From assembly GCF_003148665.1 (NCBI RefSeq), contig NZ_QGGQ01000007.1, forward strand, positions 1 to 64,000: a DNA stretch of 64,000 nt. The letters run 5' to 3'. The DNA is from Maribacter polysiphoniae. GTDB lineage: Bacteria; Bacteroidota; Bacteroidia; Flavobacteriales; Flavobacteriaceae. Position 1 is the stretch's first letter. The number at the start of each line of letters is the position of its first letter. Below the pieces are notes generated by a model that was given only the letters and a program-made list of their open reading frames with translations, was not told where the DNA came from and did no database searches. The translations under genes were made by a program, and so were the position numbers. Positions 16,251 to 20,629 of this stretch are shown in pieces.

Positions 16251-17168
16251 TTGCCGAAATTATCAACTTGGGTAAACGCTGCGCGATTGCGAACGCTCCC
16301 CCTTTCGGTTTCCGGGGTCTTGGTAGGTACTGCCCTAGCCGGTTTCTACGGTAGTGGTAACCTCACTATTTTTATCTTGGCGCTTTGTACAGCCATCGGT
16401 TTTCAGATCACATCGAATTTTGCCAATGATTATGGCGACGGGGTAAAAGGTACCGATAATGAGGAGCGTATTGGGCCGAAGCGTGTTCTTCAGAGCGGCT
16501 TACTCACCCGTAAGGTGCTAAAAAGGGGAATCATCGTCTCTATCATTGTGAATGGTATCTTGGTGGTCTCAGTGGTCTATCTCGCATTCGGACCGGAAAA
16601 TTTAGGGTATATATTCCTTTTTATGGTCCTTGGGGCCTTTAGTATCTGGGCTGCGATCAAATACACCGTCGGGACATCGGCTTATGGTTATCGGGGATTG
16701 GGAGACGTTTTTGTTTTTCTTTTCTTTGGATTGCTTGCTGTTTTGGGAACCATGTTCCTTTTTACCAAAAATATTTCATGGCCGGCCGTACTTCCTGCGA
16801 TTTCGATAGGTGCGTTGAGTACCGGGGTTTTGAATTTGAACAACCTGAGGGACCACGAATCCGACAAGGCTTCCAACAAGAATACCCTGGTAGTGCAAAT
16901 GGGATATGAAAAAGGTCTGATCTACCATACTTGGCTCATTGGGGTCGGCTTGCTGAGTTTATTGATTTTTATTGTTTTGGAGTTCCAATGTTATTTTCAA
17001 CTCCTACCGTTCATTGTTTTTATACCCATTTTGTTGCAACTCAAAAGAGTGCGCGGGACCCGTATACCTTCATTGTTGGACCCCGAATTGAAAAAACTGG
17101 CCATAGGCATATTCCTGCTTTCCGCCTTGTTTTATTTGGGTAATAATATTTTTTGTAATTTTGAGTGA
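16251..17168 (+). CDS. menA: 1,4-dihydroxy-2-naphthoate polyprenyltransferase
   Basis: A 305-aa UbiA-superfamily membrane enzyme that attaches the prenyl tail to DHNA. About eight to nine transmembrane helices. The first Asp motif is NFANDYGDGVKGTDNEER and the second is NNLRDHESDKASNKNTL, both needed for Mg-diphosphate binding. The start is TTG at 16251, one nucleotide after the preceding stop; no ATG or GTG lies before the conserved WVNAARLRTLPLSVSG. The unusual start may keep its level tied to the upstream gene. Confidence 0.95.
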   Translation: MPKLSTWVNAARLRTLPLSVSGVLVGTALAGFYGSGNLTIFILALCTAIGFQITSNFANDYGDGVKGTDNEERIGPKRVLQSGLLTRKVLKRGIIVSIIVNGILVVSVVYLAFGPENLGYIFLFMVLGAFSIWAAIKYTVGTSAYGYRGLGDVFVFLFFGLLAVLGTMFLFTKNISWPAVLPAISIGALSTGVLNLNNLRDHESDKASNKNTLVVQMGYEKGLIYHTWLIGVGLLSLLIFIVLEFQCYFQLLPFIVFIPILLQLKRVRGTRIPSLLDPELKKLAIGIFLLSALFYLGNNIFCNFE

Positions 17169-17191
17169 TAACTTACTAAACCACAAATGTC

Positions 17192-17950
17192 TTGGAACAA
17201 CCCATTAGAATATTGATCGTTGAGGATAACGTGATTATTGCCGACGATATGCAATCAATGCTTGAAGAAATAGGCTATGAGATTGTTGACAACGTCATAG
17301 TGTATGAACAAGCGGAAAAAGTATTGAAAACCGAACAAGTCGATTTGGTTCTGATAGATATTATTCTGGCATCCGATAAGACTGGGATAGATTTGGGTAA
17401 ACATATTCGGGAGAATTATGATATTCCTTTCATCTTTGTTACTTCCAACTCGGACCGGGCAACGGTGGAAAATGCCAAAACAGTGAAACCGAATGGGTAT
17501 TTGGTGAAACCTTTTGAACAACAAGATCTTTATACCTCCATCGAGATTGCTCTTTCCAATTTTACATACGGTACCAATAAGCAGGCTCCCGTTGAAAATA
17601 AGGTCAATGACGATGACGTACCCATGTCCAACTCTGTTCTTAAGGATTCCATTTTTGTAAAAAAACAGCATTTGTATTACAGGATCCAATTTGGGGATAT
17701 CCAATTTATAAAAGCGGACAATGTATACTTGGAAGTGAATACGGTTGACAAAAAATTCCTGGTACGTTCACCATTGAAGGACTATCTCGAAAAATTACCT
17801 AAGAACAAGTTCTATAGGGCACACAAATCCTATATCGTCAATGTGGATCATATTGATGCCATCAACTCCAAGGATATCATGATCAACAATAATTTGATTC
17901 CGATCAGTAAGGATTTTAAGGAATTCATTATTTCGGCAATGAATTCCTAG
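17192..17950 (+). CDS. LytTR-family response regulator
   Basis: A 252-aa two-component regulator. The receiver domain (about 5-120) has the acidic pair Glu11/Asp12, phospho-acceptor Asp56 (LVLIDI), Thr84/Ser85 and Lys106 (VKPFE). The LytTR DNA-binding domain spans about 153-250 (IQFIKADNVYLEV, FYRAHKSYIVNVDHID). LytTR proteins bind pairs of direct repeats about 21 bp apart, and such pairs lie just downstream. The start is TTG at 17192; the nearby ATG is out of frame. The likely partner is the TPR histidine kinase at 18662-20629. Confidence 0.95.
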   Translation: MEQPIRILIVEDNVIIADDMQSMLEEIGYEIVDNVIVYEQAEKVLKTEQVDLVLIDIILASDKTGIDLGKHIRENYDIPFIFVTSNSDRATVENAKTVKPNGYLVKPFEQQDLYTSIEIALSNFTYGTNKQAPVENKVNDDDVPMSNSVLKDSIFVKKQHLYYRIQFGDIQFIKADNVYLEVNTVDKKFLVRSPLKDYLEKLPKNKFYRAHKSYIVNVDHIDAINSKDIMINNNLIPISKDFKEFIISAMNS

Positions 17951-17971
17951 GGTTAAGGAAACCATAACTAT

Positions 17972-18003
17972 AAAGAGGTGCATATCAGCACCTCTTTTTT
18001 TTT
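17972..18003 (+). terminator. Terminator of the LytTR regulator gene
   Basis: Stem AAAGAGGTGC / GCACCTCTTT with ATATCA loop and a long T-run. It insulates the regulator gene from the non-coding region that follows. Confidence 0.9.
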
Positions 18004-18024
18004 GTGATAACGGTATAGCCCACG

Positions 18025-18054
18025 TTCACCACAGAAATCGCATTGTTCACAACA
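18025..18054 (+). promoter_or_regulatory. Direct-repeat pair, candidate LytTR operator 1
   Basis: TTCACCACA (18025-18033) and TTCACAACA (18046-18054), start-to-start spacing 21 bp (two helical turns), which is the arrangement LytTR dimers bind. A -33-like TTTG (18061-18064) and -7-like TATATTAG (18083-18090) follow. The distance from the second repeat to the -7 box is 37 bp, the same as at operator 2. Confidence 0.65.
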
Positions 18055-18094
18055 TTAAGTTTTGGAAAGTGGTGAATGCTTCTATATTAGCCAT

Positions 18095-18196
18095 GTGATA
18101 CGAAACAAGGTATTACCGCTTAAAAAAGTATAAAATTTTTCATTTTCATATAGTGTTCTCGTAAAAGAGCCTTGTTTTAACGACAAGGCTCTTTTT
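18095..18196 (+). ncRNA. Candidate small RNA 1 (about 100 nt)
   Basis: The predicted start is about 5 nt after the -7-like box at 18083-18090; the predicted end is the T-run of the hairpin at 18163-18196. No reading frame of useful length lies inside. The terminator cannot serve the LytTR gene, which already has one at 17972-18003, so a separate transcript is the simplest explanation. This is inference from promoter and terminator only. Confidence 0.4.
18163..18196 (+). terminator. Strong terminator with no gene before it
   Basis: Stem AAAAGAGCCTTGT / ACAAGGCTCTTTT around TTTAACG, followed by T residues. The nearest upstream gene has already ended at its own terminator 160 bp earlier. Confidence 0.85.
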
Positions 18197-18322
18197 AGTT
18201 GTAAAAGTTTCTTTTGGCCATTCGTGGAATGGGATGCCTTGGAGACTTCCTGTTTTCCTACAAAACTCCATGAAATGCAATAAAAAGACGACGAAATACA
18301 TAGGAATGTCCCAATTCATCGT

Positions 18323-18352
18323 TTCACAACAGAAAAAGGCAGTTTCACAACA
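18323..18352 (+). promoter_or_regulatory. Direct-repeat pair, candidate LytTR operator 2
   Basis: TTCACAACA at 18323-18331 and again at 18344-18352; the match extends one or two bases (GTTTCACAACA). Spacing is 21 bp. A -33-like ATTG (18355-18358) and -7-like TAATTTTA (18381-18388) follow. The second repeat to -7 distance is 37 bp and the first repeat to -7 distance 58 bp, identical to operator 1. Confidence 0.65.
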
Positions 18353-18392
18353 TAATTGCCGGGTCAGCCGACCTATGCCATAATTTTATGGT

Positions 18393-18491
18393 TCAATTAG
18401 TTTCCCCAAACTTACTTGATAACGGAATAAAACCTGCGTTTTTGTGGGGTATTGATGTTGCATATCAACCAAGGGGGACAAAACCCTTTTT
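18393..18491 (+). ncRNA. Candidate small RNA 2 (about 100 nt)
   Basis: Predicted from the -7-like box at 18381-18388 to a weak terminator-like hairpin (AAGGG / CCCTT, then T residues) at 18471-18491. It is the same length as candidate 1 but not obviously similar in sequence. It could instead be part of a long leader for the histidine kinase gene at 18662. The remaining 18492-18661 holds nothing else I recognise. Confidence 0.3.
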
Positions 18492-18661
18492 AGTGGAATG
18501 CCTTGCATTTTGTTAAAATAGGGTACGATTTATTAAACGAGGACAATCACAGTTGTAAAATTTCGTTCTAACGATACGCTAATACGAGTATGGAAGGATT
18601 TGATTTACAACAAAAAACTTATAAAACGGATTATATAAAATAATCTGGTTTTTTATTACAT

Positions 18662-20629
18662 ATGAAAAAGCTGCTTGGCAATTTTTTATTTTTTAGCATT
18701 CTTAGCTTATTTATAGCTCCTACGGCGCTATCCCAAGATTCGGTCCCATTGGTTGACGATGTTTATCTCAATTTTAAGAACCAGGATCAAAACGCCGAAC
18801 GGTTTTCTTATTTTTTCGGGGCTCCCAACAGGTATAAACAGAATTCGGCCTATGATTGGTTGGATGCCGTGAACCAATATTTGAATGAGGCCATCAAACA
18901 AAAAGATTCCATAGCCATACGGGATTATATGTTGATGCAATCCCAGGTCTATTATGACTTGGGTGATTACGATAAGAGTTTGGCTATATCAAGCGAATTG
19001 TATGATATTAAGGAACAACTGAGCCTTGATTTTAAGGCGAAGCTCTTGGGATTGATGGATCAGAATTATTCCCAGCTAGCACTCTACGCAGAACAAATCG
19101 ATATACGTAAAGAAAAGAAAGATCTCGGCCTTACCGATGATATTGCCTTTTATGACATATATTCCAATTTGGGTTTGCACCGAAAGGCAATGAAGGATTA
19201 TATCATCGAGGTGCGGAAAACCTTTCCCGACGATGACGAGTTCAGCCAGGCCAAATACCATAACAATATTGGTAATTATCTGCGATTGGACAATTCCCCA
19301 TCGGTTGCACTCAATAAATATAAAGAGGCCAAGGGCCATTTAACGGTATATCTTAACAACATTACCGTAGTTAAGACCGAAAACGAACTGATCAGCGCCA
19401 ATAGCCTTATGGGCGTCATTGATGGTAATATCGGTAAGTGCTATTCCCAATTGGGGCAATATGAGGTGGCCATTCCTTTTCTTGAATCTGGGATTGAGCA
19501 AATCATGGAGAACAGTAAAGGGAAATATTCCGATGATATTGTGGAAAACACCTTGGAAATCGCCAACTGTTACTTGCAATTGGAGGATTATGAAAAGGCT
19601 GTGGAATATTTGAGTTCTGATGTGAACCTCACGAAAACCGAACATATTCTCAAAAGAAACCGTTTGCTGGCGTCTTATTATGACAAAACAGGGGATTACC
19701 AAAATTCCGCGGCATACCTAAAACGGAATATGCGTATTAGGGACTCCATAGACATTAATGAGTCTGAACTCAGAACGCAACAATTGGCTACCGTAATGGG
19801 GCGTGATCTCGCCAATACCCAAGCCATGTTCGAAGAACAGAAAAAGAGTTTAGAGCAACAACGCTTGGAAATGACGGCCCAGGATGAAAAGATCAGCTTG
19901 GTGTTCATTTCATTGGTATTCACGCTCTTAGGTTTTGCAGGTCTTGTATATGCGTATTTGAAGAGTATTAAGAATCAACGTTTGATTGCGGAACAAAAAC
20001 ACATTATTGAAAATTCACTGATAGAGAAGGACTCTTTATTGAAAGAGATCCACCATAGGGTAAAGAACAATCTCCAGATGGTCTCAAGTCTATTGAGCCT
20101 ACAGACCAAGAATACGCGGAGCAAAGCTGCCATAGAAGCCCTGGAAGAGGGTAAGAGTAGGGTAAAGGCTATGGCGTTGATACATCAAAAACTGTATCAG
20201 AATGACGACCTTTCCGTAATTGAGATGCAAGGCTATATCGAAAGTCTGATCAATAGCGTACAATCCGTTTATAAGAAGGGTGGACACAACATTAACATTA
20301 CCATTGATGCCGAGGGGGTCGAATTGGATATCGATCGGGCCATACCCTTTGGATTGATATTGAACGAATTGGTTTCCAACTCATTTAAATATGCCTTTCC
20401 AAACGATGAAGAGAATGGAAAGATCTACATCCATATCCGAAAAGTGAACGGACAGGAAGGATTTTTCGAATATACCGATAATGGGGTGGGCCTACCCGAG
20501 GATACCGACATACGTGCCCAATCCTCTATGGGTATCCGACTAATGAATCGTTTGGCAAACCAGTTACAAACCAGTTTAAATGTGGATAAAGTTTCGGAAG
20601 GGGTTCACTTCTGGTTTAATTTTAAATAG
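18662..20629 (+). CDS. Sensor histidine kinase with TPR sensor region (HisKA_2 type)
   Basis: A 655-aa membrane kinase. Signal peptide 1-24; tetratricopeptide-type helices from about 70 to 375; a coiled coil (375-408); one transmembrane segment (411-434, ISLVFISLVFTLLGFAGLVYAYL). The HisKA_2 dimer/phosphotransfer segment follows (KEIHHRVKNNLQMVSSLLSLQ, His464/465), then the ATPase domain with N box LNELVSNSFKYAF (567-579) and G box DNGVGLP. The TPR part is outside the cytoplasm, suggesting peptide or protein sensing. It is the likely partner of the LytTR regulator at 17192; the 711 bp between them hold the paired repeats. Confidence 0.95.
   Translation: MKKLLGNFLFFSILSLFIAPTALSQDSVPLVDDVYLNFKNQDQNAERFSYFFGAPNRYKQNSAYDWLDAVNQYLNEAIKQKDSIAIRDYMLMQSQVYYDLGDYDKSLAISSELYDIKEQLSLDFKAKLLGLMDQNYSQLALYAEQIDIRKEKKDLGLTDDIAFYDIYSNLGLHRKAMKDYIIEVRKTFPDDDEFSQAKYHNNIGNYLRLDNSPSVALNKYKEAKGHLTVYLNNITVVKTENELISANSLMGVIDGNIGKCYSQLGQYEVAIPFLESGIEQIMENSKGKYSDDIVENTLEIANCYLQLEDYEKAVEYLSSDVNLTKTEHILKRNRLLASYYDKTGDYQNSAAYLKRNMRIRDSIDINESELRTQQLATVMGRDLANTQAMFEEQKKSLEQQRLEMTAQDEKISLVFISLVFTLLGFAGLVYAYLKSIKNQRLIAEQKHIIENSLIEKDSLLKEIHHRVKNNLQMVSSLLSLQTKNTRSKAAIEALEEGKSRVKAMALIHQKLYQNDDLSVIEMQGYIESLINSVQSVYKKGGHNINITIDAEGVELDIDRAIPFGLILNELVSNSFKYAFPNDEENGKIYIHIRKVNGQEGFFEYTDNGVGLPEDTDIRAQSSMGIRLMNRLANQLQTSLNVDKVSEGVHFWFNFK

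Follow-up and report, generated by a model that had tools for sequence, protein, structure and literature searches.

Direct-repeat pairs beside a LytTR regulator gene of Maribacter polysiphoniae as probable operators for a small RNA and the partner kinase

Two pairs of direct repeats between a LytTR-family response regulator gene and a histidine kinase gene in Maribacter polysiphoniae are very probably operators of the neighboring regulator, driving a small RNA (RNA-A), the partner kinase and a wider regulon. The window analyzed here is the whole 64,000-nucleotide stretch at positions 1 to 64,000 of contig NZ_QGGQ01000007.1 (assembly GCF_003148665.1). The features of the locus are as follows.

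16251..17168, + strand: UbiA/MenA-like prenyltransferase gene (Pfam UbiA, 1.1e-27)
17192..17950, + strand: LytTR-family response regulator gene, 252 aa, receiver and LytTR domains, TTG start (Pfam Response_reg, 3.9e-20; LytTR, 1.4e-17)
17972..17997, + strand: intrinsic terminator after the regulator gene (fold z -6.4)
18025..18033, + strand: operator 1, distal half-site TTCACCACA, about -70 to -62 (direct reading, conservation)
18046..18054, + strand: operator 1, proximal half-site TTCACAACA, about -49 to -41 (direct reading, conservation)
18083..18090, + strand: -7 box TATATTAG of the predicted RNA-A promoter (conserved +37 position)
18095..18199, + strand: RNA-A, predicted small RNA of ~105 nt (start from the -12 to -5 rule; fold z -4.4)
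18137..18160, + strand: near-invariant block TTTTCATTTTCATATAGTGTTCTC of RNA-A, candidate pairing region (identical in 30/30 aligned copies)
18163..18195, + strand: terminator stem of RNA-A, formed by 18163-18175 and 18183-18195 (compensatory change at 9 of 14 pairs)
18323..18331, + strand: operator 2, distal half-site TTCACAACA (direct reading, conservation)
18344..18352, + strand: operator 2, proximal half-site TTCACAACA (direct reading, conservation)
18381..18388, + strand: -7 box TAATTTTA of the predicted kinase promoter (TAnnTTTG at equal offset in relatives)
18393..18661, + strand: kinase leader, with hairpin AGTTTCCCCAAACT near its start (18399-18412)
18662..20629, + strand: TPR - HisKA_2 - HATPase histidine kinase gene, 655 aa (Pfam HisKA_2, 1.3e-26; TPR; HATPase_c)

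A preliminary description of this DNA had reported four repeats in two pairs with a 21-bp spacing, each pair followed by a -7-like box at +37, and direct reading of the sequence reproduced this arrangement exactly. The pattern TTCACMACA-N12-TTCACMACA occurs twice in the window (18025/18046 and 18323/18344), with a 21-bp period in each copy, and both TATATTAG at 18083 and TAATTTTA at 18381 begin 37 bp past the start of the second repeat. Each of these boxes matches five of the six fixed positions of TAnnTTTG and differs at one. Lone half-sites with up to one mismatch were not enriched in the window (39 versus 36.1 expected), and the spaced pair, rather than the lone half-site, constitutes the signal. 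A promoter scan of positions 17940-18670 returned one weak sigma-70-like site, fewer than in shuffled sequences. A study of Flavobacterium psychrophilum places the TAnnTTTG box at -12 to -5 (PMC9723704). Application of this rule predicts transcription starts at 18095 and 18393, the same positions as the figures given previously, and places the half-sites at about -70/-62 and -49/-41.

A total of 286 stretches were found to encode relatives of the regulator, and conservation of the pairs was measured in the best 80 of them, drawn from Maribacter, Zobellia, Arenibacter, Kriegella, Ulvibacterium, Euzebyella and other genera; these 80 loci share kinship, and counts made on them are of non-independent events. 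Under a strict test (up to one mismatch per half, within 900 nt after the regulator gene, spacings up to 60), a spacing of 21 was found beside the orthologous LytTR gene in 68 of these best 80 loci, a spacing of 53 in one, and no other spacing in any. The 900 nt upstream yielded no pair, the other strand yielded one locus (spacing 14), and reversal of the sequences gave a spacing of 21 in two of the 80 loci and five other spacings in one locus each. When a total of up to three mismatches was tolerated, at least one pair was found in 74 of the 80 loci and two separate pairs in 27; the six without were L062, L099, L104 (at a contig end), L112, L123 and L131. The box position was equally constrained, as TAnnTTTG lay exactly at +37 in 60 of 90 sites, with three sites at each of the next best offsets, and TAnnTT was present at +37 in 81 of the 90.

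The window's genome (5.13 Mb, 30 contigs) contains five exact pairs, all with an N12 spacer when N11 to N13 was allowed, and none in the reversed-pattern control. Together with the 21-bp spacing in related loci, this search strongly upheld the earlier view that the pairs are unlikely to have arisen by chance. Among 60 genomes, this one included, exact pairs were detected in 16, and the reversed control was zero in every genome. Fifteen of the 16 were from the same genus or from three other genera with a close (at least 91% identical) LytTR ortholog. Exact pairs were still located 3' of the regulator gene in G131 and G150, which encode divergent orthologs (77% and 69% identical, respectively), and a terminator followed five of the seven sites listed in these two genomes. 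The ortholog of G064 (71%) was followed only by pairs with three mismatches, and no comparable pair was found downstream of the G114 ortholog (60%).

Behind operator 1 there is no protein gene, and no ATG occurs within 18095-18199. Judged by sequence, RNA-A has the attributes of a small RNA: a predicted promoter of its own, an intrinsic terminator and no open reading frame. The invariance of its block is in part a product of how copies were collected, since 18147-18158 served as the search key. A count independent of this key was obtained from the 29 pairs (up to three mismatches) within 85 nt past the regulator gene in the 80 loci, 25 of which were followed by the exact string TTTTCATTTTCATATAGTGTTC (18137-18158). 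The remaining early pairs were followed by a variant block in L053 and L058 and by neither form in L075 and L088. RNA-A was also present in L076, though no pair there passed the early-site test. The 3' side of the block is occupied by a hairpin and T-run, in which nine of 14 pairs covary across 30 aligned copies (a 32-copy set minus L053 and L058, which have unusual 3' ends; the L084 copy was shortened). Four copies of RNA-A are present in the window's genome. The other three, which were found with 18137-18158 and three mismatches allowed, each follow a -7 box and a pair of 21-bp period that departs from the pattern at two or three positions. No Rfam family matched at its gathering score in positions 17100-19000 of the window or in 11 related loci; weaker matches, such as ncr1015 (32 bits versus 60), fell below the gathering score and were treated as chance.

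A covariance model of RNA-A, which starts after the -7 box and hence excludes the operator, matched in 18 of 99 genomes, the window's own included. Two of these 18, the weak matches in G042 and G077 outside the group (E about 1e-5), look like bare terminators and were discarded. Operators were scored at 27 of 30 loci, the others (L152-L154) having no block; some of the scored copies, such as those of the window's genome, had helped to build the model. A spaced pair with up to three mismatches was located upstream of 23 of 27 RNA-A copies but in only 1 of 338 control windows, and that single positive control was operator 2 of the same locus. Eight of the 27 copies adjoin the regulator gene; among the 19 situated elsewhere, 15 had such a pair. 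With up to five mismatches, a pair was found upstream of all 27 copies versus 7 of 338 controls, the degenerate operators that need four or five mismatches numbering 4 of the 27. In L160 a pair with four mismatches stands at the right distance with box TACATTTA, and its score equals that of a misplaced pair.

Operator 2 would drive the kinase gene; in 73 of the 80 loci this gene is located downstream in the same orientation. The kinase gene is separated from the regulator gene in three Arenibacter genomes (G099, by about 276 kb; G100, on another contig; G101, by about 433 kb) and in G102 (by about 21 kb), and an operator-2-type pair was found upstream of the separated kinase in all four. In L099 (genome G103) the kinase is adjacent and has no pair, and the contig contains no match to the exact pattern. 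Across loci L052-L131 the regulator is far more conserved (89-98% identical) than the kinase (47-99%, median 67% in 73 loci).

A second small RNA may be made from operator 2, instead of or besides the kinase messenger; we consider this a genuine possibility, if the lesser one. Of 76 sites not belonging to RNA-A, the window included, 16 have a terminator within 184 nt past the -7 box, versus 1% in shuffled sequences. Ten of these 16 sites belong to the 80 loci and six to G101, G131 and G150, and several terminated units occur in G131 and G150. In addition, CCC-loop stems of at least five pairs were present at 19 of the 76 sites. Against this reading, no terminator was detected in the kinase leader of the window or at 60 of the 76 sites. 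Part of the transcripts from the terminated sites may end early.

The assignment of the pairs to the LytTR protein was examined by co-occurrence in 199 Flavobacteriaceae genomes, the window's own included, with thresholds of E <= 1e-6 for RNA-A and of E <= 1e-60 and at least 60% identity for the regulator. RNA-A was detected in 32 genomes, all among the 36 with a LytTR ortholog, and in none of the 163 without one; 30 of the 32 carry it in two or more copies. The genomes with a regulator and no RNA-A were the divergent G064, G114, G131 and G150, and the filters of the RNA search lose weak matches. Exceptions came from the sample of relatives. In G002 (83% complete), the regulator is present and no RNA-A match was found. 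Conversely, G004 (68% complete) and G007 (99% complete, 810 contigs) have RNA-A and operators, and a close LytTR ortholog was not found in either. The kinase was not found in G007 either and is represented in G004 only by its 3' part, at a contig end; the missing regulators are likely due to assembly gaps.

These distributions bear on an alternative in which some other direct-repeat regulator binds the pairs and the LytTR protein merely neighbors them. The regulator encoded in the window contains receiver and LytTR domains that both exceed their Pfam cut-offs, and its gene begins 23 nt 3' of the prenyltransferase gene, which we take to be menA. All 80 loci have a menA-like gene immediately before that of the regulator, with a gap of 17-34 nt, and the two genes are probably cotranscribed. 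This linkage suggests that the level of the regulator follows that operon and not the regulator's own operators. The position of the regulator gene could likewise reflect membership of that operon, and G049 has one isolated exact pair with no close LytTR ortholog found; both points favor another binder. However, the restriction of RNA-A to genomes with the ortholog in the 199-genome sample argues against it, as do the use of paired direct repeats upstream of the promoter by LytTR proteins and the tracking of the pair with the kinase where the two genes are separated. Binding by a different regulator is thus improbable, and the LytTR protein remains the preferred candidate.

It is more improbable still that RNA-A is a leader or attenuator of the gene downstream rather than a free small RNA. 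The kinase gene does lie downstream on the same strand in the window. However, RNA-A ends in a terminator maintained by compensatory changes, RNA-A and the kinase gene are separated by a further operator with its predicted promoter, and each of the three other copies in the genome is followed by a long open reading frame on the opposite strand.

The proposed regulon extends well beyond the two promoters of the window. A search with strict half-sites, which misses degenerate operators, yielded 134 distinct sites: 12 at RNA-A, 19 at a second small-RNA family (RNA-C), four at a related class and 99 at others, many of them kinase leaders. RNA-C is ~150-180 nt long and occurs in up to four tandem copies, with units about 310 bp apart; in the window's genome it follows a gene that we recognized by eye as, presumably, hflX. 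Its own motif was detected in 10 of 60 genomes, all with a LytTR ortholog. A pair with up to three mismatches accompanied 17 of 18 RNA-C copies, the 18th abutting an N run, versus 1 of 119 control windows. The RNA-C consensus fold has six pairs, none with a compensatory change. In the RNA-C stretch of the window's genome (L001, 1501-2077; L220), an N run is flanked by the same repeat and perhaps represents a collapsed tandem array. Least probable of all is that these elements are a small repeat family spreading through intergenic regions and conserved only by recent copying, since the several copies per genome and the tandem RNA-C units that favor it are outweighed by free variation of the copies outside the block, terminator and operator, by compensation in the terminator, and by retention of the place beside the regulator gene in genera such as Maribacter, Zobellia and Euzebyella.

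Several protein genes were also observed behind operators. A gene for a peptide of 33-36 aa was present in L002, L031, L032, L039, L041, L045, L047 and L214; the one copy scanned had no Pfam match, and a terminator followed the gene in the seven cases examined. Proteins of 123-124 aa with a MEN or MEK start were encoded in L003, L026, L029, L038 and L042 and in the further loci L187, L189, L193, L195 and L204. Their sites have no clear TAnnTT at +37, and the one copy scanned had no Pfam match over the cut-off. L051, L192, L197, L202 and L207 encode proteins of 292-298 aa that share the motif LxDLYxxxxGxxW and begin with a signal-like sequence, and a 56-aa protein is encoded in L036 and L203, the L036 copy matching DUF6747.

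The preliminary description had interpreted the pairs as operators of the regulator, each activating one promoter within the locus. Conservation, recurrence and co-occurrence with the LytTR ortholog support this interpretation, which was incomplete in that it missed the small RNA behind the first promoter and the wider regulon. We propose that the pair is most likely a binding site from which the phosphorylated regulator activates transcription. A regulator dimer would contact the half-sites (about -70/-62 and -49/-41) from one side of the helix and would recruit RNA polymerase to the -7 box at a fixed distance. From operator 1, this would produce RNA-A as a terminated small RNA of ~105 nt with its block probably exposed. 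From operator 2, it would produce the partner TPR-HisKA_2 kinase and so create a feedback loop. The same regulator would also control the wider regulon, in which short peptides and a few proteins join the RNA-C genes and between one and five copies of RNA-A in each genome.

RNA-A probably exerts its effect by base pairing, with the block as the contact region. Apart from the four copies of RNA-A, a search of the window's genome for the complement of the 22-base string of the block, with up to three mismatches, gave a single other site. Predicted pairing of RNA-A with kinase leaders was weak (mean z -0.67 in 43 leaders). The sequence TATGAAAA, which resembles the complement of the block, was detected in 41 of the 64 leaders of kinase genes compared, versus a shuffled mean of 2.0. 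Start regions of the TATGAAAA type are common in exported proteins, and we regard this sequence in kinase leaders as a lead only to an RNA-A target. The motif GAG[AG]ACA occurs in 16 of the 64 leaders and lies between -106 and -133 in 14 of these. A broader reading, which we hold to be rather doubtful, is that the system works largely through RNA, in that paralogous small RNAs with a shared block UUUUCAUUUUCAUAUAG complementary to UAUAUGAAAA-type start regions would silence many exported MKK- proteins together with the system's own kinase, in a family without Shine-Dalgarno sequences.

Small-RNA control in Bacteroidota is, to our knowledge, little charted. One operator and one promoter geometry are linked here with two or more families of small RNA that lack an Rfam match, all attributable to one regulator. 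The recurrence of these sites before many related small RNAs in marine genera points to a signaling system that acts partly through small RNAs. Among known systems, VirR and RgaR are LytTR proteins, and the VirR repeat sequence differs from that of Maribacter; the CiaR and LhrC systems have OmpR-type regulators and other operators.

The AgrA-P2/P3-RNAIII system of Staphylococcus aureus is alike in combining a LytTR regulator, direct repeats and two promoters within its own locus, one for signaling genes and one for a regulatory RNA (PMC4227749). However, the AgrA system has divergent promoters, peptide quorum sensing and one RNA, whereas the Maribacter system has same-strand promoters, a TPR-HisKA_2 kinase and several short RNAs; the adjacent kinase is not of the AgrC type that defines agr systems. 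VirR-VR-RNA of Clostridium perfringens shares paired, phased direct repeats at a fixed position and a regulatory RNA target (PMC2838878). It differs in phylum and kinase type, and its repeats lie just upstream of a -35 element. RgaR-SpoZ of Clostridioides difficile is the closest in spacing, as its half-sites are 21 bp apart and a small RNA is activated; changes at G-51 and G-72, also 21 bp apart, are reported to have lowered spoZ activity about 5-fold (PMC10602386). The Maribacter operators have this same period of 21 between two direct repeats, with a box at +37. In contrast to the Maribacter system, RgaR belongs to the Firmicutes and has one small RNA among the direct targets named in that study (PMC10602386). 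Sets of several related small RNAs that are controlled by, or connected with, a single two-component system are likewise described for the CiaR csRNAs of Streptococcus and LhrC1-5 of Listeria (PMC8186281, PMC3091779, PMC6305404), which unlike the Maribacter system are from Firmicutes. Among the matches listed in a literature search of open-licence papers, none concerned LytTR-controlled small RNAs in Bacteroidota. The arrangement described here resembles a kind known in Firmicutes, in which a LytTR regulator is joined to a regulatory RNA; what appears to be new is its setting in Bacteroidota and the several RNA copies. Collectively, this comparison suggests that LytTR regulators are coupled to regulatory RNAs in marine Bacteroidota as well as in Firmicutes, from which such coupling is known.
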